Shown here: positions 16,841 through 27,086 of the stretch, in pieces
Position numbering within the stretch: the first letter of the stretch is position 1
Layout of the letters: each line of letters opens with the position of its first letter
Assembly: GCA_026196045.1 (NCBI GenBank)
Contig: JAPHRJ010000100.1
Coordinates: 1-32,700 of the forward strand
From: Gammaproteobacteria bacterium
GTDB lineage: Bacteria > Pseudomonadota > Gammaproteobacteria > UBA6429 > Thiohalophilaceae
DNA length: 32,700 bases
Direction of reading: 5' to 3'
Made by a program: the position numbers and the translations under genes
Notes under the pieces: model-generated
Database searches by the model: none
The model's input: only the letters and a program-made list of their open reading frames with translations
What the model was told of the DNA's origin: nothing

Positions 16841-16862
16841 ACGGATATTGCAGCGGTAAATT

Positions 16863-17849
16863 TTGGGTATTTCACATCAAATAAAAAAAACAGCATTAGT
16901 TACTGGTGCTACCGGCTTTATAGGTGAGGCTCTTGTAAAGTCATTATTAAATGATGGTTATCAGGTTAACTGTGGCGTACGAGCGATGCCAGACAATAAC
17001 AATAAAATTAGTAATGCTCACTATTATTCCTTAGGTGATTTTTCCCAACTACCTGATTGGGAAGCGGCGTTAGATGATATGGATTCTGTTATACATCTGG
17101 CTGGCCGAGTCCATGTTATGCGTGAAACTGAAAGTGATCCTGTTAAGTGTTTTCGTGAAGCTAATGTTGATGCAACACTGCATCTGGCGAGATGTGCAGC
17201 AAAAGCCAAGGTACGGCGTTTTATTTATGCGAGTACGGTAAAGGTTCATGGAGAAGAAACCCTGGAAAAGCCGTTTTCAGAATCAGACAGGCTTTGTCCT
17301 GTTGATCCATATGCCATATCTAAATATGAGGCCGAAGAAGCATTAATGAAACTTGGGGAAGAAACCGGAATGGAAGTCGTAATTTTCAGGCCAGTTCTGG
17401 TTTATGGTCCTGGGGTAAAAGGGAATTTTTACAAATTAATTGAACTTGTTGACCGAGGTATACCATTACCGTTTTCAGCAATGCAGAATCAACGCAGTCT
17501 AATTGGACTTGATAATCTGGTTGATGTAATCAAACAGTTTATGACGCATCCAGCTGCAGCAAACCAGAGGTTCCTTGTTTCTGATGATGATCTTTCTACT
17601 GAAAAATTGGTACAGTTTATTGGGAAAGCACTGGGACGTACGCCGAGATTATTCAGAGTTCCTGTGTTGGTTCTGAAAATAATAAAATTGGTACCAAAGC
17701 TTAATGCTCTCGCAAATCGGTTGTTTGGATCACTTCAGATCAATAATACTAAGTTAAGAAGAACGCTGGGTTGGGAAGCCCAAAGAACAAGTTCTGATGG
17801 AATTAATGAAACGATAACATGGTATCTAGAACAAAGAGCCAGGCATTAA
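16863..17849 (+). CDS. NAD-dependent epimerase/dehydratase, WbpV/WreQ-like UDP-4-keto-6-deoxy-HexNAc 4-reductase
   Basis: An extended SDR of 328 residues. It has the NAD-binding TGATGFIG near residue 14, the catalytic serine S124 (YASTVKVHG) and Y150-x3-K154 (DPYAISKYEAEE). Together with the next two genes (WbpL- and WbpM-like) it repeats a set known from Pseudomonas and Rhizobium O-antigen loci. There the SDR reduces UDP-4-keto-6-deoxy-GlcNAc to UDP-QuiNAc or its C4 epimer. The start must be non-ATG: a stop at 16857 closes the frame, the first Met comes only at residue 42, after the nucleotide-binding motif, and TTG at 16863 is the only usual start codon between. The reductase role is inferred from context; plain 4-epimerase activity is possible. 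Confidence 0.82.
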   Translation: MGISHQIKKTALVTGATGFIGEALVKSLLNDGYQVNCGVRAMPDNNNKISNAHYYSLGDFSQLPDWEAALDDMDSVIHLAGRVHVMRETESDPVKCFREANVDATLHLARCAAKAKVRRFIYASTVKVHGEETLEKPFSESDRLCPVDPYAISKYEAEEALMKLGEETGMEVVIFRPVLVYGPGVKGNFYKLIELVDRGIPLPFSAMQNQRSLIGLDNLVDVIKQFMTHPAAANQRFLVSDDDLSTEKLVQFIGKALGRTPRLFRVPVLVLKIIKLVPKLNALANRLFGSLQINNTKLRRTLGWEAQRTSSDGINETITWYLEQRARH

Positions 17850-17852
17850 ACT

Positions 17853-18881
17853 GTGTTATTGAATTTCTCGACAGTGTTTATTTATAACCTTTTAGCATTT
17901 GTTGTTGCGCTAGCTGCTGTATATTTTCTGTCTAAACAGAAGGCTAAATTATCAATACTGGATCAACCCAATGAAAGATCATTACATAGTGTACCCGTAA
18001 ACCGCACGGGAGGATTGGGGATATTTTTTTCCATCATGTTAGTCGGTTTTGCTTTTAATCTGATACATCCTCTTACACCCCGAGTGTTGCCCGTTATATC
18101 TGGAATGCTAATAATTGTGATCGTTTCGTTTATGGATGATGTTTTTGATCTTAGTGTCAAAATTCGATTATTTTTTCAGGCCATTTCGGCTTTGCTTTTG
18201 ATAACGCATGGTATGGTTATTGGAAGCATCGATTTACCTTTTCTATCCTTTGAATTACCAGAATGGCTGGCTTATATGCTTACTTTTCTTCTGGTTATTT
18301 GGTGTATTAACCTCTATAACTTCATGGATGGAATGGATGGTTTTGCAGGTGGAATGGCTGTGATTGGTTTTACAACATTTACTTTACTAGCCTGGATTCA
18401 GGATGCTTTTCCACTGGCTATTTTGTCTGGATTGATTGCGAGTGCCAGTGCTGGTTTTCTGGTGTTTAACTTTCCACCCGCTAAAATATTTATGGGGGAT
18501 GCAGGATCCTCGATGTTGGGTTTTCTAATGGCTGCACTGATGATATGGGCAGATAATATCGGTATTATTCCAGTTTGGTTAGGCGTGTTGGTCTTTTCAC
18601 CATTTATTCTGGATGCAACATTTACCTTATTTAGACGTTTAATCAAACGTGAAAAAGTATGGGAAGCGCATCGAACACATCTTTATCAACGCTTTGTAGT
18701 ATATGGCTGGAGCCACAAACGAACTGTATTACTTGAGTATTTAGCTATGTTAGTTTGCTCAGCAATGGTAATGATTGCGGTAATTTCAGAACAACAAAAT
18801 GTGCAACTTGGTATACTTTTTGTATCTATTTTGTTTTATCTAAGTATATTCAGTGCTGCAACGAAAATTATAAAAAATTAG
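17853..18881 (+). CDS. WecA/WbpL-type polyprenyl-phosphate sugar-1-phosphate transferase
   Basis: A MraY/WecA-family membrane enzyme (342 residues, about 10-11 membrane segments) that moves a HexNAc-1-phosphate from UDP-sugar to undecaprenyl phosphate, the first step in building a lipid-linked glycan. It has the family motifs RTGGLGI (51-57), the metal-binding DD at 95-96 (FMDDVFDLS), NLYNFMDGMDG (153-163), KIFMGDAGSS with D216, and the cytosolic EAHRTHLYQR (271-280). It starts with GTG at 17853, three bases after the previous stop. With a 4-ketoreductase before and a 4,6-dehydratase after, WbpL/WreU-like transfer of QuiNAc or FucNAc is more likely than GlcNAc transfer by WecA. Confidence 0.9.
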   Translation: MLLNFSTVFIYNLLAFVVALAAVYFLSKQKAKLSILDQPNERSLHSVPVNRTGGLGIFFSIMLVGFAFNLIHPLTPRVLPVISGMLIIVIVSFMDDVFDLSVKIRLFFQAISALLLITHGMVIGSIDLPFLSFELPEWLAYMLTFLLVIWCINLYNFMDGMDGFAGGMAVIGFTTFTLLAWIQDAFPLAILSGLIASASAGFLVFNFPPAKIFMGDAGSSMLGFLMAALMIWADNIGIIPVWLGVLVFSPFILDATFTLFRRLIKREKVWEAHRTHLYQRFVVYGWSHKRTVLLEYLAMLVCSAMVMIAVISEQQNVQLGILFVSILFYLSIFSAATKIIKN

Positions 18882-18894
18882 GGATTAATTAAAT

Positions 18895-20763
18895 ATGTTA
18901 AAGACAAGCCGTCTATTATTGGTATCGATATACGATTTCCTGACTATTCCTCTGGCATGGTCCCTGGCATATCTATTACGGTTTAATTTAGAAACGATTC
19001 CTGAACCATTTTATAGGGACGCACTCTGGACCTTACCAGTATTAATAATAACCCAAACTTTAGTCTACAGGTGGTTTGGTTTATATAGAGGCATATGGCG
19101 TTTTGCATCAATTCCTGATTTTATTCGTATTATCAAAGCGGTTGCTGTTGGCGTTGTAATTTCCCTCTTCGTTGTTTTTATTCTAAACAGGATCGAAGGC
19201 ATTCCGCGCTCTATTTTCCCACTTTACGGTATTTTGCTATTTCTTTTCCTGGCAGGAGCACGACTTGGCTATCGAATTTTTAAAGACCGGATGATCCTTG
19301 ATAAAAATGGTAAACCAGTTCTAATTGTTGGTGCAGGTCGTGGAGGTCAGATTGTTGCAAAAGAACTAAGGCAACCACAGGATGATGGGATGACATATTT
19401 ACCTGTTGGCTTTGCAGATGATGATAAAAATAAACAGGGGCGAGAAATACAGGGATTACAGGTTCTGGGGAAAGTGGCTGATATCCCCAATATTGTAAAA
19501 GACAATGAGGTTGCTCTAGTTATTATTGCCATGCCTTCCCTATCCTCAGCCAAAATGCGTGAAATTGTTGGTATTTGTGAAAAGCTGAATGTTGAATTTA
19601 GAACCTTACCAAGGGTCAGCGATATGGCTCTTGGAAAAGTGACGGTGAATGCATTAAGGGAAGTTTCAATTGATGATTTGCTTGGTCGTGATCAGATTAG
19701 ACTGGACTGGGATAATATTAAATCTGATTTAGTAAATAAAACAGTTTTGGTTAGCGGGGGTGGCGGGTCTATCGGCTCTGAGCTGTGCCGACAAATTGCC
19801 AAATTAAAACCAGCCGCTTTGGTCATTCTTGAAAGGAGTGAGTTTAATTTATATTCAATTGAAAAAGAGCTCACTGAACAATATCCGGAAATGGCATTAT
19901 ATGCTTGCCTTGGTGATGTGACTGACGAAGTTCGTGTTAATCAAATTATGGCAACCTATAAACCCGGCGAGGTATTCCATGCGGCTGCTTATAAACATGT
20001 TCCTTTGCTTCAGTCTCAGGTTCGAGAAGCGGCAAAAAATAATATTCTTGGTACAAAGATATTAGCCGAGTCAGCTGCGAAACATGGGGTAGAAAATTTT
20101 GTTCTAATTTCTACAGATAAAGCTGTAAACCCGACAAATATTATGGGTGCCTCTAAACGTGTTGCTGAAATATTTTGTCAGAACTTTAATACCCGGGTTG
20201 ATACTTCTTTTATTACTGTCAGGTTTGGTAATGTCCTTGGATCGGCGGGTAGTGTTGTGCCACTGTTTAAAAGGCAGTTAAAAAATGGTGGACCTTTAAC
20301 AGTAACACATCCTGATATGACCCGTTACTTTATGACGATACCTGAGGCCTGCCAGCTAATCATGCAATCATCGGTTCTCGGTGAGGGTGGAGAAATATTT
20401 GTTCTGGATATGGGAGAGCCTGTTAATATTACCTATTTAGCTGAACAAATGATCAAACTTTCTGGAAAAATGCCTGGTAAGGATGTTGAAATTGTTTATA
20501 CAGGGTTAAGGCCTGGTGAAAAACTGTATGAAGAGTTGTTTCATGAGTCAGAAAACCTCTCTCCAACAGGACATGAAAAAGTTTTATTAGCTAAATATCG
20601 GGAAGTAGACTGGAAGTTCCTTGAAAAAAATCTGGCTGAAATTGCATCCAAAAGCATAACATACGATGAAGATGCAATTATTGAGTTGATAAAAACTTTT
20701 GTTCCAGAAATGAAACAGGCACTAAGAACGGAAGAACCCAGAATATCCAAGGTGCAAAATTGA
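18895..20763 (+). CDS. WbpM-like membrane-bound UDP-GlcNAc 4,6-dehydratase
   Basis: A 622-residue protein with the WbpM/CapD architecture: four N-terminal membrane segments within about residues 8-125, a first Rossmann-like domain (VLIVGAGRGG at about 142) and a C-terminal SDR domain with VSGGGGSIGSELC (286-298). The catalytic segment STDKAVNPTNIMGASK (406-421) carries Met417 and Lys421 in place of the usual Tyr-x3-Lys, the mark of this dehydratase group. It makes UDP-4-keto-6-deoxy-GlcNAc, the substrate for the reductase two genes upstream. The ATG at 18895 follows AGGGAT at 12 bases. It is slightly shorter than Pseudomonas WbpM but complete. Confidence 0.92.
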   Translation: MLKTSRLLLVSIYDFLTIPLAWSLAYLLRFNLETIPEPFYRDALWTLPVLIITQTLVYRWFGLYRGIWRFASIPDFIRIIKAVAVGVVISLFVVFILNRIEGIPRSIFPLYGILLFLFLAGARLGYRIFKDRMILDKNGKPVLIVGAGRGGQIVAKELRQPQDDGMTYLPVGFADDDKNKQGREIQGLQVLGKVADIPNIVKDNEVALVIIAMPSLSSAKMREIVGICEKLNVEFRTLPRVSDMALGKVTVNALREVSIDDLLGRDQIRLDWDNIKSDLVNKTVLVSGGGGSIGSELCRQIAKLKPAALVILERSEFNLYSIEKELTEQYPEMALYACLGDVTDEVRVNQIMATYKPGEVFHAAAYKHVPLLQSQVREAAKNNILGTKILAESAAKHGVENFVLISTDKAVNPTNIMGASKRVAEIFCQNFNTRVDTSFITVRFGNVLGSAGSVVPLFKRQLKNGGPLTVTHPDMTRYFMTIPEACQLIMQSSVLGEGGEIFVLDMGEPVNITYLAEQMIKLSGKMPGKDVEIVYTGLRPGEKLYEELFHESENLSPTGHEKVLLAKYREVDWKFLEKNLAEIASKSITYDEDAIIELIKTFVPEMKQALRTEEPRISKVQN

Positions 20764-20812
20764 TATATATAATATTGTTGTATCCGCTGAATAGTATTTT
20801 TAAGGTATCGTA

Positions 20813-22246
20813 GTGTCATCCCAGTATCCTTTATGTGTCGACCTGGACGGCACACTCATTCATACTGACTTGCTTTTTGAGTCATTTATAAGACTTATTA
20901 AACAACACTTTTTCTCTCTATTTTTAATTCCGTTCTGGTTGCTTAAAGGTAAATCGTACTTAAAGCATGAGATTGCTCGCCGTATTAAACTTGATTATGA
21001 GCTGTTACCTTATAATGATGAGGTTATCTCTTTTTTAAAGAAAGAGAAAAGTTTGGGTCGGAAAATTGTGCTTGTAACGGCATCAGATCAATTATTTGCT
21101 GATAGGGTTGCTGCTTATTTGGGAATATTTGATGAAGTTTATGGGAGCAATGCGAACTTTAATCTTAAAGGCCGAAACAAAGCAAAGAAACTTGTTGAGC
21201 TCTACGGTGAGGAAAAGTTTTCTTATATAGGGAATGACAAGTCCGATATACATATCTGGCAATATGCAGACTCGGCTATTGTTGTTGGTGATAAGCAGTT
21301 TCTCACTGGAATGATTGATAAGAGTGTTAAAGTTCTAACTGATACTGGAATTAATAACCCCAAGTCACGATCTTTTACTAAAGGTATTATCAAGGAAATC
21401 CGTCCCCATCAGTGGGTAAAAAATATTCTTATTTTTATACCGCTTATGCTGGCGCATGCCTATTTTGATCAGCAGCGTATTTTCTCAAGTCTGATAGCAT
21501 TTATTTCATTTTGTTTATGCGCATCCTCTGTGTACATGTTTAATGATTTGATGGATCTGGATGCTGACCGGATACATCCAACAAAAAGAAATCGTCCTTT
21601 TGCTTCTGGGGAACTTCCTATTGTGGTGGGATTGTTCATTGCTCCTCTCTTATTATTAGCTTCAATTTTACTGTCCATGGCGGTATCACTCGAGTATACC
21701 GCTGTATTCTCAGTCTACTTTATTTTAACAACAGCCTATTCACTGGGATTAAAGTCATTTGCATTATTAGATGTATTTATACTGGCAGGTTTATATACCA
21801 TCAGGGTACTGGCTGGGACAGTTGCAGCAAATGTGGATCTATCATTCTGGTTATTAGCGTTTTCTCTGTTCTTCTTTTTCTCACTGGCACTACTAAAGCG
21901 TTTTTCTGAATTGTTTAACCTCGTAAAAATGGAACAAGCTCACAGTCATGGCCGTGGTTATTCCACAGATGATATAAGCATTCTTTCTGCTCTAGGAGTT
22001 TCAAGTGGGTTTATTTCTGTCCTTGTGATTGCTTTGTATATTCAGACACCTGAGCATGTGGTTCAGTATCAACAACCAGAATTACTGTGGATGGTGTTTC
22101 CTGCCATGTTGTACTGGATTAGCCGTATGTGGTTATTGGCACATCGTGGAGAGATGAATGAAGATCCTGTGCTTTTTGCGGTTAAGGATAAACAAAGCTA
22201 CATGATCGTTATAATGGCGATCGCGGGCATTGCTTTGGCCGTATAG
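20813..22246 (+). CDS. HAD phosphatase-UbiA fusion, probable phosphoribosyl-polyprenyl-phosphate synthase and phosphatase
   Basis: A 477-residue two-domain protein. Residues 1-180 are a HAD hydrolase: nucleophile motif VDLDGT with D10 and D12, VTAS at 88-91, a conserved lysine near 123-126, and GNDKSD at 140-145. Residues 195-477 are a UbiA-type prenyltransferase with about eight membrane segments. They open with RPHQWVKN, hold the first Asp-rich motif ND(245)LMD(248)LDADRIHPTKRNRP, and a second polar motif YSLGLKSFALLD (309-320). RPHQWVKN and HPxKxxRP are typical of decaprenyl-phosphate 5-phosphoribosyltransferase (Rv3806c type) rather than UbiA of quinone synthesis. The HAD part could remove the 5-phosphate from the product. 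It starts with GTG at 20813 after AAGG. DprE1- and DprE2-like genes follow directly, which supports this role. Confidence 0.82.
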   Translation: MSSQYPLCVDLDGTLIHTDLLFESFIRLIKQHFFSLFLIPFWLLKGKSYLKHEIARRIKLDYELLPYNDEVISFLKKEKSLGRKIVLVTASDQLFADRVAAYLGIFDEVYGSNANFNLKGRNKAKKLVELYGEEKFSYIGNDKSDIHIWQYADSAIVVGDKQFLTGMIDKSVKVLTDTGINNPKSRSFTKGIIKEIRPHQWVKNILIFIPLMLAHAYFDQQRIFSSLIAFISFCLCASSVYMFNDLMDLDADRIHPTKRNRPFASGELPIVVGLFIAPLLLLASILLSMAVSLEYTAVFSVYFILTTAYSLGLKSFALLDVFILAGLYTIRVLAGTVAANVDLSFWLLAFSLFFFFSLALLKRFSELFNLVKMEQAHSHGRGYSTDDISILSALGVSSGFISVLVIALYIQTPEHVVQYQQPELLWMVFPAMLYWISRMWLLAHRGEMNEDPVLFAVKDKQSYMIVIMAIAGIALAV

Positions 22247-22247
22247 G

Positions 22248-23555
22248 ATGAGTAAATATCAATCCTGGGGAAATATTCCTGTTTCGCATCACAGTATTAT
22301 TCAACCTGCCTGGCGTAACCTGAATATAGAGTTTAATGAGACAGGCGCTGGTTATTTGCCCTATGGGTTGGGGCGTAGTTATGGTGATTCCTGTCTTAAT
22401 GATGGTGGTGTACTTTTTGTTACATCAAGTCTGGATCATTTTATCCAGTTTGACTCTAATACCGGGATCATTCGGTGTGAGGCAGGTGTAACGCTAGCCG
22501 AGATTCTGGATCTTGTTGTGCCTCAGGGCTGGTTTTTACCGGTGACACCAGGAACAAAATTTGTCACTGTTGGAGGCGCTATAGCCAATGATGTACATGG
22601 TAAAAATCATCATTCTGCCGGTACGTTTGGATGCCATGTCACCGAATTTGAATTACTTCGTTCCAGTGGTGAACGTATCATATGTACCACAGAAAAAAAT
22701 ACTGAATTTTACAAAGCGACTATCGGTGGGCTGGGTTTGACTGGTCTGATCATATCGGCAGAAATACAGCTAAAAAAAATACCAGGTCCAAAAGTAATAT
22801 CTGAAACAATTGCCTTTGCTAATTTGGCTGAATTTTTTTCTTTGTCTGATGAATCAGATGACAAATGGGAATATACGGTTTCATGGATTGATTGTCTTGC
22901 CACAGGTGCAAGTCTTGGTCGCGGTTTGTTTATGCGCGGACAACATACAGACCAGGATACGACTCCCTGTAAGGAAAAAAGGACGGTATCCGTTCCAATG
23001 AATTTGCCTAATGTTCTTTTGAACAAGCATACAATTAATGCTTTCAATAAGCTGTATTTCTACAAAAATCAAAAGAAAGTTAATCAAAATATTGGTTGTT
23101 ATGAACCATTCTTTTATCCATTGGATGGCATTTGTCATTGGAACAGAATGTATGGAAAAAGAGGTTTTTATCAATATCAGTGTGTGGTTCCCCTTGATGA
23201 TGGGGCTTATATTACAGAGCAGTTATTATCGACTATTTCAAAGTCAAAAATGGGGTCATTCTTATCTGTGTTGAAAAAATTTGGTGATGTGGAATCACCT
23301 GGAATGATGTCCTTTCCTCGAAAAGGGGTGACACTGGCCCTGGATTTTGCAAATCAGGGAAGCAAAACACTGCAATTGATGGACGAATTGGATAGAATTG
23401 TTGTGGAAGCAAGTGGGGCCGTTTATCCTGCCAAGGATGCGCGAATGTCAGCGCAGAGTTTTCAACACTATTATCCTCAGTGGCAGACATTTTCTGAGTA
23501 TATTGATCCAAAATTCTCATCCAGTTTTTGGTGCCGAGTAACGGCTGCTGATTAA
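22248..23555 (+). CDS. dprE1: DprE1-like FAD oxidase of polyprenyl-phospho-ribose
   Basis: DprE1 oxidises C2' of decaprenyl-phospho-D-ribose to the keto sugar, half of the epimerisation to the arabinose donor. The 435 residues are a VAO-type FAD protein very like mycobacterial DprE1: GLGRSYGD (40-47), PGTKFVTVGGAIANDVHGKNHHSAG (two parts, 101-125) with H117 matching His132, NRMYGKRGFYQYQ (299-311), and K396 in PAKDA matching Lys418. The residue matching Cys387, the covalent target of benzothiazinones, is Ala364 here. I chose the ATG at 22248, one base after the previous stop; the frame runs six codons further upstream into that gene, which is less likely. The gene symbol is by similarity. Confidence 0.88.
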   Translation: MSKYQSWGNIPVSHHSIIQPAWRNLNIEFNETGAGYLPYGLGRSYGDSCLNDGGVLFVTSSLDHFIQFDSNTGIIRCEAGVTLAEILDLVVPQGWFLPVTPGTKFVTVGGAIANDVHGKNHHSAGTFGCHVTEFELLRSSGERIICTTEKNTEFYKATIGGLGLTGLIISAEIQLKKIPGPKVISETIAFANLAEFFSLSDESDDKWEYTVSWIDCLATGASLGRGLFMRGQHTDQDTTPCKEKRTVSVPMNLPNVLLNKHTINAFNKLYFYKNQKKVNQNIGCYEPFFYPLDGICHWNRMYGKRGFYQYQCVVPLDDGAYITEQLLSTISKSKMGSFLSVLKKFGDVESPGMMSFPRKGVTLALDFANQGSKTLQLMDELDRIVVEASGAVYPAKDARMSAQSFQHYYPQWQTFSEYIDPKFSSSFWCRVTAAD

Positions 23556-23567
23556 AAAATAAATTAC

Positions 23568-24308
23568 ATGAATAAAAATATAATGATAATCGGCGCAACC
23601 TCAGCAATTGCCCAGGAAGTAGCTAGACAATACGCAAGTCCTGGATGTCAACTGTTTCTGGTTGCGCGTGATGAATCTAAACTCGATATAGTTAAAGCTG
23701 ATCTTCTTAGTCGAGGAGCAGGTAATGTTGCGACTGCCTGTATGGATTTTTCTGTGGCTTCTGATTTTAATACTGTTCTCGATAATGCAAATGCATTTCT
23801 GGGTTCAATTGATACTGTATTAATTGCTTATGGCACCTTGCCTGATCAAGTTGCCTGCGCTGAATCAAGTGATGAGACACTTAAGGCTCTTAATCTTAAT
23901 CTTGTAAGCGTTATTTCTGTTTTAACGGTACTCGGTAATTATTTTGAAAAACAACAGTCTGGTACTATTGCTGTTATTTCATCAGTCGCAGGTGATCGTG
24001 GCCGTCAAAGCAATTATGTTTATGGGGCAGCAAAAGGTGGATTGTCTATTTTTCTACAAGGGCTAAGAAATCGTTTAGCAACAAAAGGTGTTAATGTGTT
24101 AACCATTAAACCTGGGTTTGTTGATACACCAATGACTAAAGCATTTGATAAAGGCCCGCTGTGGGCATCTCCAAAGACCGTTGCAAAGAGTATTGTTAAG
24201 GCGATCGAGAAAAACAAAGATACATTATATGTGCCATGGTTCTGGTTCTGGATCATGTTGATCATTAAGTTTATACCAGAAAAAATATTCAAAAGAATGA
24301 GTTTGTGA
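23568..24308 (+). CDS. dprE2: DprE2-like SDR reductase (keto-pentose to arabinose step)
   Basis: DprE2 reduces the 2'-keto intermediate made by DprE1 to decaprenyl-phospho-D-arabinofuranose with NAD(P)H. This 246-residue SDR has the DprE2-like nucleotide motif GATSAIAQ (9-16), the catalytic serine in VISSVAGDRGR (136-146), and Y152-x3-K156 (SNYVYGAAKGG). The KPGFVDTPMT segment follows. A hydrophobic C-terminal stretch at about 223-240, followed by basic residues, suggests membrane association, fitting a lipid-linked substrate. It lies 12 bases after the DprE1-like gene, the same order as in mycobacteria. FabG-like activity is the main alternative, but context argues against it. Confidence 0.86.
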   Translation: MNKNIMIIGATSAIAQEVARQYASPGCQLFLVARDESKLDIVKADLLSRGAGNVATACMDFSVASDFNTVLDNANAFLGSIDTVLIAYGTLPDQVACAESSDETLKALNLNLVSVISVLTVLGNYFEKQQSGTIAVISSVAGDRGRQSNYVYGAAKGGLSIFLQGLRNRLATKGVNVLTIKPGFVDTPMTKAFDKGPLWASPKTVAKSIVKAIEKNKDTLYVPWFWFWIMLIIKFIPEKIFKRMSL

Positions 24309-24310
24309 TA

Positions 24311-25276
24311 ATGAGTAATAAGTTACCCAGTAAAATTGGAAAAGAAGATAAAATAGTTATCCCTGGAGCGGCGGGACTAGTAGGACAAAATCTGATCATC
24401 CAGTTAAAAGAAAAGGGCTACAATAATATTGTTGCTATTGATAAATATGCAGAAAATCTTCAAGTTTTAAAAGAGTTACATCCTGACATAATGATAGTAG
24501 ATGCTGATGTGTCAGAGCATGGTGAATGGGAAGAATATTTAGTCGGTGCAGCAACAATCATTATGTTGCAGGCGCAAATTGGATCAAAATATTCAGATGA
24601 CTTTATTCGTAATAATATCGATTCTGCCAAACTCGTTTTAAAGGCAGCAAAGGAAAAACAGGTACCCTATATTGTTCATGTTAGCTCATCGGTTGTAGAG
24701 TCGGTTGCAGATGATGATTATACCAACACCAAGAAAGAACAGGAAAAGCTGGTTGTTGAATGTGGTATTCCACATTGTGTCCTACGTCCCACTTTAATGT
24801 TTGGCTGGTTTGATCGTAAGCATCTTGGATGGTTGTCACGCTTTATGCAAAAAATACCAGTGTTTCCTATCCCTGGTAGTGGTAAATATATGCGTCAGCC
24901 GCTTTACGCTCGTGATTTCTGTAAAATTATTGTTGCTGCGATGGAAATGCAACCTGATAATGAAATTTACAATATTACAGGGCGAGAAATGGTGGACTAT
25001 GTAGATATTATTCGGCAGATAAAAAGCTCAATTGGCTCTAAAACGTGGATTGTCCATATTCCGGTATTTTTCTTTGCCTTTCTGTTGAAAATCTATGCTT
25101 TCTTTGATGATAATCCTCCTTTTACCGCTTCCCAGTTAACGGCACTAACCGCCCATGATGAGTTTGAGCTCATTCCCTGGTGGGATATTTTTGATGTAAA
25201 ATCCACACCTTTTAAGCAGGCCATTGATGAAACGTTTCTTGATAAACGTTATTCAGCCTATGTACTGAAATTCTAG
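24311..25276 (+). CDS. Atypical NAD-dependent epimerase/dehydratase family protein, function unknown
   Basis: An extended-SDR protein of about 321 residues. The nucleotide motif PGAAGLVGQN (18-27) has Ala-Ala where most members have Gly-x-x-Gly. The catalytic region has VHVSSSVVES and then DDDYTNTKKEQEKL, so Tyr-x3-Lys is present. A hydrophobic segment near residues 250-270 (IVHIPVFFFAFLLKIYAF) may touch the membrane. The start is either the ATG at 24311, with GAG nine bases upstream, or a GTG at 24305 that overlaps the dprE2-like stop. It is in the arabinose-donor gene run, so a lipid-linked or nucleotide pentose is a plausible substrate. I do not recognise a characterised relative. Confidence 0.8.
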   Translation: MSNKLPSKIGKEDKIVIPGAAGLVGQNLIIQLKEKGYNNIVAIDKYAENLQVLKELHPDIMIVDADVSEHGEWEEYLVGAATIIMLQAQIGSKYSDDFIRNNIDSAKLVLKAAKEKQVPYIVHVSSSVVESVADDDYTNTKKEQEKLVVECGIPHCVLRPTLMFGWFDRKHLGWLSRFMQKIPVFPIPGSGKYMRQPLYARDFCKIIVAAMEMQPDNEIYNITGREMVDYVDIIRQIKSSIGSKTWIVHIPVFFFAFLLKIYAFFDDNPPFTASQLTALTAHDEFELIPWWDIFDVKSTPFKQAIDETFLDKRYSAYVLKF

Positions 25277-25303
25277 AAATACTGAAGTTCCAGGGAGTAT
25301 TCT

Positions 25304-26587
25304 GTGGCAAAAATTGCAGTTATTGGTGCCGGTGTTATGGGGCTGGCCTGTACATACGACTTATTAAAGGTCGGTCATGAGGTCGAGTTATATGAAGCCG
25401 ATGATCGTATTGGCGGTATGGCCGCACATTTTGACTTTGCTGGAATCAACATCGAACGTTATTATCACTTTATCTGTAAACCAGATACTCATTTATTCGA
25501 TTTACTCGATGAGCTGAGCATTCAGGACAAATTAAAATGGCGTGAGACCTTTATGGGGTATTTTTTTAAAGGTCGTCTGCATGAATGGGGAAATCCTGTC
25601 GCGCTATTAAAATTTCCTGAACTCGATTTACTTTCCAAACTGCGTTATGGCTTTCATGCCTTTTTTTCTACAAAGGTTAATAACTGGCAGCATCTTGATG
25701 ATCAGGAAGCGTCTGAATGGATTCAGCGCTGGATAGGAAAAAAATCATATGATGTATTATGGAAACGTCTGTTTGAATTAAAGTTTTTTGAGTATAAAGA
25801 TAACCTGTCTGCAGCGTGGATTTGGTCGCGTATTAAGCGTGTTGGTTTATCGCGTAAAAGCATGATGCAGGAAGAGATGGGCTACCTGGAAGGCGGCTCT
25901 GATGTTCTGTTGCAGGAAATGGAAAAAGCGATTATTGCACTAGGTGGAAAAATCCATCTTAAGCAACCTGTCGAACAGGTCCTGGTTAACGACAACCAGA
26001 TAACCGGTATCCGGATAAATGGTGAAGAACAAAACTATGATGCGGTATTCAGTACCATACCGTTGCCTTTTGTACCTGACATGATTCAGGCCCTTCCAGA
26101 TGACTACAAAGAAAAATATAGTTCAATTAAAAATATGGGTGTCGTCTGCGTCATTTTTCAGTTAGATAGCCCGGTGACAAAAAACTTCTGGCTCAATATT
26201 AGCGATGAAAATATTGATATTCCCGGTTTAATTGAATTTTCTAATTTGCGACGTTTTGATAATCATATTGTTTATGTTCCGTATTACATGCCACAAACTC
26301 ACCCCAAGCACGAAATGACCAATGATGATTTTGTTAATGAAGCTCAGTCCTACATTAAAATGGTTAACCCGGAACTGAAGGATGAATCGTTTCTTGAGGC
26401 TCATGTTTCACGTTATGGCTTTGCCCAGCCGGTCTGTCACCCGGGCTTTGCTTCAGCTTTACCTCCGGTTAAAACGCCGATTAAAGGTTTGTTCATTGCA
26501 GATACGAGTTACTATTATCCCGAAGATCGTTCTATTTCTGAAAGTGTGAGACTGGGACGAGAAATGGCAGAGCTGTACTCGCATTAA
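25304..26587 (+). CDS. FAD-dependent amine-oxidase/protoporphyrinogen-oxidase-fold protein, function unknown
   Basis: A 427-residue flavoprotein. The N-terminal dinucleotide-binding motif is VIGAGVMGL (6-14) with the acidic ribose-binding YEADDRIGGM after it, and the C-terminal FAD segment is KGLFIADTSYYYPEDRSISESVRLG. The fold resembles amine oxidases, protoporphyrinogen oxidases and, more remotely, UDP-galactopyranose mutase. The early YYHFICKPDTHLFDLL stretch is common in members found in polysaccharide loci. It starts with GTG at 25304 behind a strong AGGGAG. It lies between the unknown epimerase and the GtrA gene, so a role in making or modifying the lipid-linked sugar is inferred. No reaction can be assigned. 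Confidence 0.82.
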   Translation: MAKIAVIGAGVMGLACTYDLLKVGHEVELYEADDRIGGMAAHFDFAGINIERYYHFICKPDTHLFDLLDELSIQDKLKWRETFMGYFFKGRLHEWGNPVALLKFPELDLLSKLRYGFHAFFSTKVNNWQHLDDQEASEWIQRWIGKKSYDVLWKRLFELKFFEYKDNLSAAWIWSRIKRVGLSRKSMMQEEMGYLEGGSDVLLQEMEKAIIALGGKIHLKQPVEQVLVNDNQITGIRINGEEQNYDAVFSTIPLPFVPDMIQALPDDYKEKYSSIKNMGVVCVIFQLDSPVTKNFWLNISDENIDIPGLIEFSNLRRFDNHIVYVPYYMPQTHPKHEMTNDDFVNEAQSYIKMVNPELKDESFLEAHVSRYGFAQPVCHPGFASALPPVKTPIKGLFIADTSYYYPEDRSISESVRLGREMAELYSH

Positions 26588-26606
26588 TGATCCGGACAGC
26601 CCACCT

Positions 26607-27014
26607 ATGAACAATCATAAAGAAGAGTTCATTCGTTTTATCATGGTCGGTGGCTTTGCGGCCATTGTTAATTTCGTTAGTCGAATTTTATATAGTGAAT
26701 GGACGAGTTTCAGGATAGCCGTTGTTGTTGCTTATTTGACGGGCATGGTAACGGCCTATTTATTATCGAAGTTGCTGGTTTTTGCCCCCAGCGGTAAACC
26801 AGCGTCGCAGGAGTTCCTGTACTTTAGCCTGGTTAATCTGGCTGCAGTAATTCAGGTCTGGTTCATCAGTGTGGGTCTGGCCGAATACCTTTTCCCATAT
26901 GTAGGATTGATGTTTTATCCGGAAGAAGTGGCCCATTTTATTGGTCTGTCAGTGCCGGTGATCACCAGCTATCTTGGGCATAAGCATTTTACCTTCGCCC
27001 AGGTTCAGAAATAA
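26607..27014 (+). CDS. GtrA-like small membrane protein (possible lipid-phospho-sugar flippase)
   Basis: A 135-residue protein with four membrane segments, at about residues 9-29, 37-58, 70-92 and 105-124, and charged ends. This is the GtrA-like pattern, including FIRFIMVGGFAA at the start and SYLGHKHFTF at the end. GtrA proteins are linked to flipping polyprenyl-phospho-sugars. In mycobacteria the GtrA-like Rv3789 lies beside dprE1 and has been tied to moving or using decaprenyl-phospho-arabinose. The same partnership here makes a flippase or scaffold for the arabinose donor the best inference. It is the last gene of the plus-strand run. Confidence 0.85.
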   Translation: MNNHKEEFIRFIMVGGFAAIVNFVSRILYSEWTSFRIAVVVAYLTGMVTAYLLSKLLVFAPSGKPASQEFLYFSLVNLAAVIQVWFISVGLAEYLFPYVGLMFYPEEVAHFIGLSVPVITSYLGHKHFTFAQVQK

Positions 27015-27019
27015 GTTTT

Positions 27020-27045
27020 ATAACCCGCATAAAAAACAGGGTTAT
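27020..27045. terminator. Possible terminator between the GtrA gene and fabI
   Basis: Perfect 7-bp arms ATAACCC (27020-27026) and GGGTTAT (27039-27045) enclose a 12-base A-rich loop between two converging genes. T-runs are poor on both strands, so activity is uncertain. Confidence 0.4.
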
Positions 27046-27086
27046 TAACTGAATGGCAATATCTCTAAGAGTATGTCCTTGTGGGA

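Follow-up and report, generated by a model that had tools for sequence, protein, structure and literature searches.

A 32,700-nucleotide stretch of genomic DNA from a gammaproteobacterium of the family Thiohalophilaceae (contig JAPHRJ010000100.1; hereafter the window) contains a horizontally mobile cassette of six genes (positions 20813 to 27014), which probably directs the synthesis and export of a polyprenyl-phosphate-linked D-pentofuranose. An additional step in this route would be contributed by a pair of genes encoding an extended short-chain dehydrogenase/reductase (SDR) and a flavin adenine dinucleotide (FAD)-dependent oxidoreductase. A preliminary description of this DNA named four products (UbiA with a phosphatase domain, DprE1-like, DprE2-like, and GtrA) packed tightly on the plus strand. 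Their open reading frames (ORFs), strand, and spacing were confirmed, and the intergenic distances along the six genes are 1, 12, -4, 27, and 19 bases. The SDR and FAD genes, which lie inside the same interval, had been omitted from that list. The headline of that description, a route of this type in a Gram-negative bacterium, is not new. In 2024, Kelly et al. reported a widespread pentofuranose pathway with HAD-UbiA fusions, DprE1/E2 homologues, and GT-C partners (PMC11127046), and further Gram-negative examples have been reported (PMC12369383, PMC2443382). As far as the open-access literature searched reaches, what is new is a conserved form with six genes, among them the SDR/FAD pair.

Identity of the pathway enzymes

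Profile and PDB searches place the UbiA, DprE1-like, and DprE2-like proteins nearest to the enzymes of the decaprenyl-phospho-arabinose route of Mycobacterium tuberculosis, as the preliminary description had proposed. The HAD-UbiA fusion matches NCBIfam PRK08238 (627 bits, cut-off 351), followed by decaprenyl-phosphate phosphoribosyltransferase models (180 bits), with heme O and phytyl transferases at about 34 bits. Its sole PDB matches are structures of the M. tuberculosis DPPR synthase (8j8j/8j8k, E 2e-32). The protein carries DxDGT and NDxxDxxxD motifs, and counterparts of the residues required in the Citrobacter HAD-UbiA enzyme (D18 of the phosphatase loop and the NDxxDxxxD cluster) are present. 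The DprE1-like protein, whose start is an ATG 18 bases inside the mechanically called TTG ORF at 22230, has M. tuberculosis DprE1 as its top PDB match (E 3e-72), with cytokinin dehydrogenases as the next family (2e-8), and retains the FAD-binding domain, HGKNHH, and the equivalent of K418. For the DprE2-like protein, the top PDB match is M. tuberculosis DprE2 (21gq_C, E 8e-29; FabG about 1e-16), and the profile scores are 323 bits for PRK07102 and 187 bits for NCBIfam DprE2. The E values of the M. tuberculosis matches rule out chance similarity for the three enzymes. All motifs named in the preliminary description (DLDGT, RPHQWVKN, NDLMDLDADRIHPTKRNRP, HGKNHH, and YVYGAAK) occur in the sequence.

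These homologies and the intact catalytic motifs allow us to infer the first steps of the pathway. The UbiA domain would transfer phosphoribose to polyprenyl phosphate, after which the fused HAD domain would strip the 5-phosphate. DprE1, with FAD, would then oxidise C2', and DprE2, with NAD(P)H, would reduce the product to polyprenyl-phosphate-arabinofuranose; inversion of C2' by these two enzymes is known for mycobacteria, and tuberculosis bacteria use a lipid-carried arabinose donor for their cell wall. The extended SDR and the FAD enzyme would work together on this lipid-linked intermediate, in an extra redox or epimerisation step on the sugar or the isoprenoid. The GtrA-family protein is predicted to flip the lipid-linked sugar, which a GT-C transferase encoded elsewhere would attach to a periplasmic acceptor. 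The proposal of a D-arabinofuranose lipid donor thus holds in part: the genes are best read as specifying a pentofuranose donor on polyprenyl phosphate, although, since the cassette has two further conserved genes, the final donor may differ from plain polyprenyl-phosphate-arabinofuranose.

At the position of M. tuberculosis DprE1 Cys387, the window has Ala (23337-23339), as do the 26 further six-gene loci that were examined. Across the full set of 63 non-actinobacterial DprE1-like sequences (the window and 62 others), the residue is Ala, Thr, or Ser. A change at this cysteine, which is attacked by benzothiazinones, has been associated with the natural resistance of M. avium and M. aurum (PMC6015584). 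Its replacement here predicts natural insensitivity to covalent DprE1 inhibitors.

Conservation and co-occurrence of the six genes

Thirteen relatives from the family (L105-L114, L116, L121, and L122) repeat the gene order UbiA, DprE1, DprE2, SDR, FAD, GtrA, at several chromosomal sites. Two of these (L121 and L122) have no HAD domain, and the FAD gene of L112 reads as two pieces. In two additional loci, the SDR-FAD-GtrA segment diverges from the rest (L117) or the FAD gene was not recognised (L120). The same six genes, in the same order, are found on five plasmids, from Agrobacterium salinitolerans, Burkholderia stagnalis, Rhodobacteraceae bacterium SC52, and two Rhizobium tumorigenes strains. 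UbiA genes without the phosphatase domain are located at L120:9219-10091, L121:9252-10136, and L122:9655-10536, and no 5-phosphate phosphatase is evident at these loci.

To survey the phylum we used an even draw of 299 genomes, in which the FAD gene was counted at an identity of at least 49%. DprE1 is present in 42 of the 299 genomes and the FAD gene in seven, all of which (the window genome included) have DprE1. With the window genome excluded, DprE1 occurs in 6/6 FAD-positive genomes versus 41/298 overall (hypergeometric, 5e-6), and the SDR and GtrA are also present in all six. For the 35 other genomes with DprE1, 33 loci were inspected, some of them truncated at contig ends, and neither the SDR nor the FAD gene was found at any of these; nor was the FAD gene detected in any of the 35 when the whole genomes were searched. 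DprE1/E2 loci therefore exist in two forms, one plain and one with the SDR/FAD pair. Pairwise distances of the six cassette proteins correlate mutually at 0.65 to 0.92, most tightly for SDR and FAD (0.92), versus 0.11 to 0.46 with those of the chromosomal FabI. Synteny and co-occurrence show that the SDR/FAD pair belongs to the cassette, and the covariation of the cassette distances, weak with FabI, indicates that the cassette moves as a unit.

Most relatives in the family have gltP directly adjoining fabI. Given this empty site, the arrangement in the window genome is an insertion of about 10 kb between the two genes (16841-27086), consisting of WbpV-, WbpL-, and WbpM-like genes and the cassette. 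The arrangement of the window is shared, as far as the contigs reach, by L104-L106, three relatives that belong to a single other genus. Direct gltP-fabI neighbours were recorded at L216, L217, L219, L222-L224, L226-L229, L231, and L233-L235. The three Wbp-like genes (an epimerase/reductase, a GT4 polyprenyl-phosphate sugar-1-phosphate transferase, and a protein of the UDP-GlcNAc 4,6-dehydratase type) end 49 bases before the cassette, both lying within one insertion site. The neighbours of the cassette that were checked in relatives are mostly housekeeping genes (PurK, ribosomal S1-like, LapB-like TPR, PyrF), with no link to pili or secretion genes.

Table 1 Features of the pentofuranose cassette and the adjoining glycan genes in the window
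Feature	Position	Strand	Basis
HAD-UbiA fusion (477 aa): polyprenyl-phosphate phosphoribosyltransferase (UbiA) with putative fused phosphoribose phosphatase (HAD)	20813..22246	+	Profile, PDB match, motifs
DprE1-like FAD oxidase, predicted for lipid-linked ribose (C2')	22248..23555	+	PDB match, motifs
DprE2-like SDR, predicted 2-keto reductase	23568..24308	+	PDB match; PRK07102 and NCBIfam DprE2 profiles
Extended SDR (NAD-dependent epimerase family), cassette member	24305..25276	+	PF01370, 72 bits; motifs; synteny
FAD-dependent oxidoreductase (PRK07233, amine-oxidase/phytoene-desaturase fold), cassette member	25304..26587	+	Profile, model, co-occurrence with DprE1
GtrA-family small membrane protein, proposed flippase	26607..27014	+	PF04138, 55 bits; last cassette gene in relatives and plasmids
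WbpV-, WbpL-, and WbpM-like glycan initiation genes	16863..20763	+	Profile matches; neighbours in relatives

Possible roles of the SDR/FAD pair

The most economical reading is that the substrate of the SDR/FAD pair is either the lipid-linked sugar or the isoprenoid that carries it. In the extended SDR, the SSS...YxxxK and GxxGxxG motifs are invariant across 23 homologues and the catalytic triad is intact. The FAD protein matches PRK07233 with 546 bits (cut-off 252). PDB sequence searches with both proteins returned weak superfamily matches only, and a fold search with the SDR retrieved generic extended SDRs without discriminating among them. The structural model of the FAD enzyme (mean pLDDT 92) is closest to phytoene desaturase (TM 0.83, 18% identity), and its fold is nearer to this enzyme and to protoporphyrinogen oxidase than to DprE1. 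In two unrelated genomes, paralogues only distantly related to the FAD enzyme (about 30% identity) adjoin GT2 genes that resemble polyprenyl-phosphate-sugar synthases. They are located at L178:9398-10675 and L130:8971-10362; the former also adjoins an LPG_synthase_TM gene, a family that likewise borders the cassette in L171.

A possible, if doubtful, role for the pair is modification of the isoprenoid carrier, in which a prenyl unit would be saturated, desaturated, or isomerised to mark a carrier pool for pentofuranose export. Phytoene desaturase as the nearest solved fold is consistent with such a role, as are the synthase-like neighbours of the paralogues, for which polyprenyl phosphate could be the common part of the substrate. 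The likeness of fold is, however, at the superfamily level, the paralogues are distant, and support in the literature was not found. It is unlikely that the cassette runs the plain mycobacterial-type route to polyprenyl-phosphate-D-arabinofuranose, with the SDR and FAD enzyme acting elsewhere in glycan metabolism or being dispensable neighbours. The pair is missing from the majority of DprE1/E2 loci in the phylum sample, which are presumably functional, and arabinofuranose is the product where DprE1/E2 systems are known (PMC11127046, PMC12369383), yet the pair occurs together inside the cassette at many unrelated places and its distances track those of the other cassette genes. Less probable again, and drawn by analogy, is a second epimerisation at C3, in which the pair would oxidise and then reduce the sugar as DprE1/E2 do, giving a lyxofuranose (or xylofuranose) donor. 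A flavoenzyme with an SDR mirrors DprE1/E2, the SDR triad is intact, and in Citrobacter O2 the SDR epimerase ORF13 converts a ribofuranose donor to xylofuranose (PMC11127046). Against this, ORF13 needs no flavoenzyme partner, and the fold of the FAD enzyme is not that of DprE1. Very improbable is the absence of any pentofuranose pathway, with UbiA serving as a prenyltransferase for quinone, heme, or other products and the SDR as FabG-like: all the proteins come from broad superfamilies and the genome has two further UbiA proteins, but DPPR synthase, DprE1, and DprE2 are the best matches by wide margins, the two other UbiA copies can cover housekeeping roles, and grouping of UbiA with quinone or heme prenyltransferases, or of the SDR with FabG, did not appear in the profile and PDB searches.

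Several points weigh against a cassette for a lipid-linked pentofuranose with an added SDR/FAD step. The three pathway enzymes score below the NCBI equivalog cut-offs (180 versus 207 bits for DPPR synthase, 374.5 versus 500 for DprE1, and 186.7 versus 250 for DprE2), and thus probably act like these enzymes while lying outside the narrow families. The compared sequences are related, and the correlations and counts given above are not independent observations. The pathway and its putative glycan are predicted from genes, and the reaction of the pair is one that we infer. A family scan of the window ORFs found no GT-C protein, in agreement with the earlier remark that the window has no arabinosyltransferase. 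The family and profile search of the whole genome for GT-C proteins covered PF04602, PF13231, and profiles A1, A2, and A7, and did not include GT136 itself. It found no Emb-type transferase (PF04602; the Corynebacterium glutamicum control was positive), and profiles A1, A2, and A7, which represent two GT-C types beside other cassettes, were negative in this 93% complete assembly, with no positive control.

Candidate transferases and acceptor

No Emb-type enzyme was found in the genome, and PF13231 detects one PMT_2 GT-C protein on another contig (559 aa, contig C106, L131:8133-9812), near an lpxD-like gene. Homologues of this protein adjoin the cassette in G024, G034, and G036, three relatives from a single genus, and this placement makes it the leading candidate for the transferase. 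Such homologues are widespread in the family, also in relatives without the cassette, and are present in 25/27 cassette-positive versus 4/9 cassette-negative family genomes (Fisher p 0.006), an association that is only suggestive because of shared descent and incomplete genomes.

GT-C-like polytopic proteins are encoded inside the operon in L115, L171, L175, and L176 and adjoin it in L117 and L124-L127. The occurrence of several unrelated polytopic types at the cassettes is as expected for an exchangeable, acceptor-specific partner. A PDB sequence search with the polytopic neighbour in L115 gave no match to known arabinosyltransferases. One polytopic family, of about 770 to 815 aa and with the motif D-x-SW ... 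D-I/V-VFT-x-GP, is encoded within or next to six-gene cassettes (L171:4517-6895, L124:2356-4791, L126:13624-16071, L127:14350-16674, and L175:3929-6367). A Pfam scan of three of its members gave no match, and it is possibly an unnamed GT-C family.

WbpL- and WbpM-like genes adjoin the cassette in several relatives (L120 also has both), suggesting that the acceptor may be an O-antigen or similar glycan. The genome encodes one Wzy_C protein.

Comparison with known systems

The cassette resembles the three-component systems of Citrobacter youngae O1/O2 in that its HAD-UbiA protein has the domain order of ORF15 and keeps the required residues, sugar-epimerising enzymes stand between synthase and export, and periplasmic use is expected. 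The Citrobacter HAD-UbiA has been shown to make farnesyl-phosphate-ribofuranose, and DprE1/E2 homologues have been predicted to serve arabinofuranose glycans (PMC11127046). As judged from sequence, the window thus has the UbiA and phosphatase component and the DprE1/E2 homologues of such a system, the latter in place of the ORF13 epimerase. In contrast to the prototype, a GtrA-family protein takes the place of the MATE flippase, the locus has no GT-C gene, and the SDR/FAD pair is added.

The mycobacterial decaprenyl-phosphate-arabinose pathway (Rv3806c, Rv3807c, DprE1, DprE2, Rv3789) shares a phosphoribosyltransferase, DprE1, DprE2, and a GtrA-family protein with the window, and the M. tuberculosis enzymes are the best PDB matches. 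In contrast to that pathway, the window phosphatase is a fused HAD domain, the proteins fall below the equivalog cut-offs, Cys387 is replaced by Ala, the genome lacks an Emb-type transferase, and the genes, with their extra SDR/FAD pair, form a mobile accessory cassette. The pilin D-arabinofuranose island of Pseudomonas paraeruginosa (PSPA7_6245-6251, with TfpW; PMC12369383) is likewise a Gram-negative accessory island for a lipid-linked D-arabinofuranose donor with its GT-C transferase coded elsewhere; unlike it, the window has the phosphatase fused to UbiA and carries the SDR/FAD pair. For Azorhizobium, similarity to the M. tuberculosis route underlies the proposal that noeC, noeH, and noeO of the noeCHOP genes supply a D-arabinose precursor (PMC2443382). 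The likeness to this system is by description rather than gene by gene, and the acceptor there is a Nod factor.

Implications

We tentatively suggest that the six-gene form is a distinct, widely transferred variant of the pathway in which the SDR/FAD pair gives a lipid-linked sugar or carrier undescribed in bacteria, such as a donor of lyxofuranose or a polyprenyl carrier altered by redox chemistry and dedicated to the export of pentofuranose. The pair poses a defined and testable question as to its reaction. DprE1 and DprE2 are tuberculosis drug targets, and a mobile cassette that carries them through the Pseudomonadota together with a tightly linked enzyme pair would extend the range of surface glycans assembled from lipid-linked pentofuranoses.

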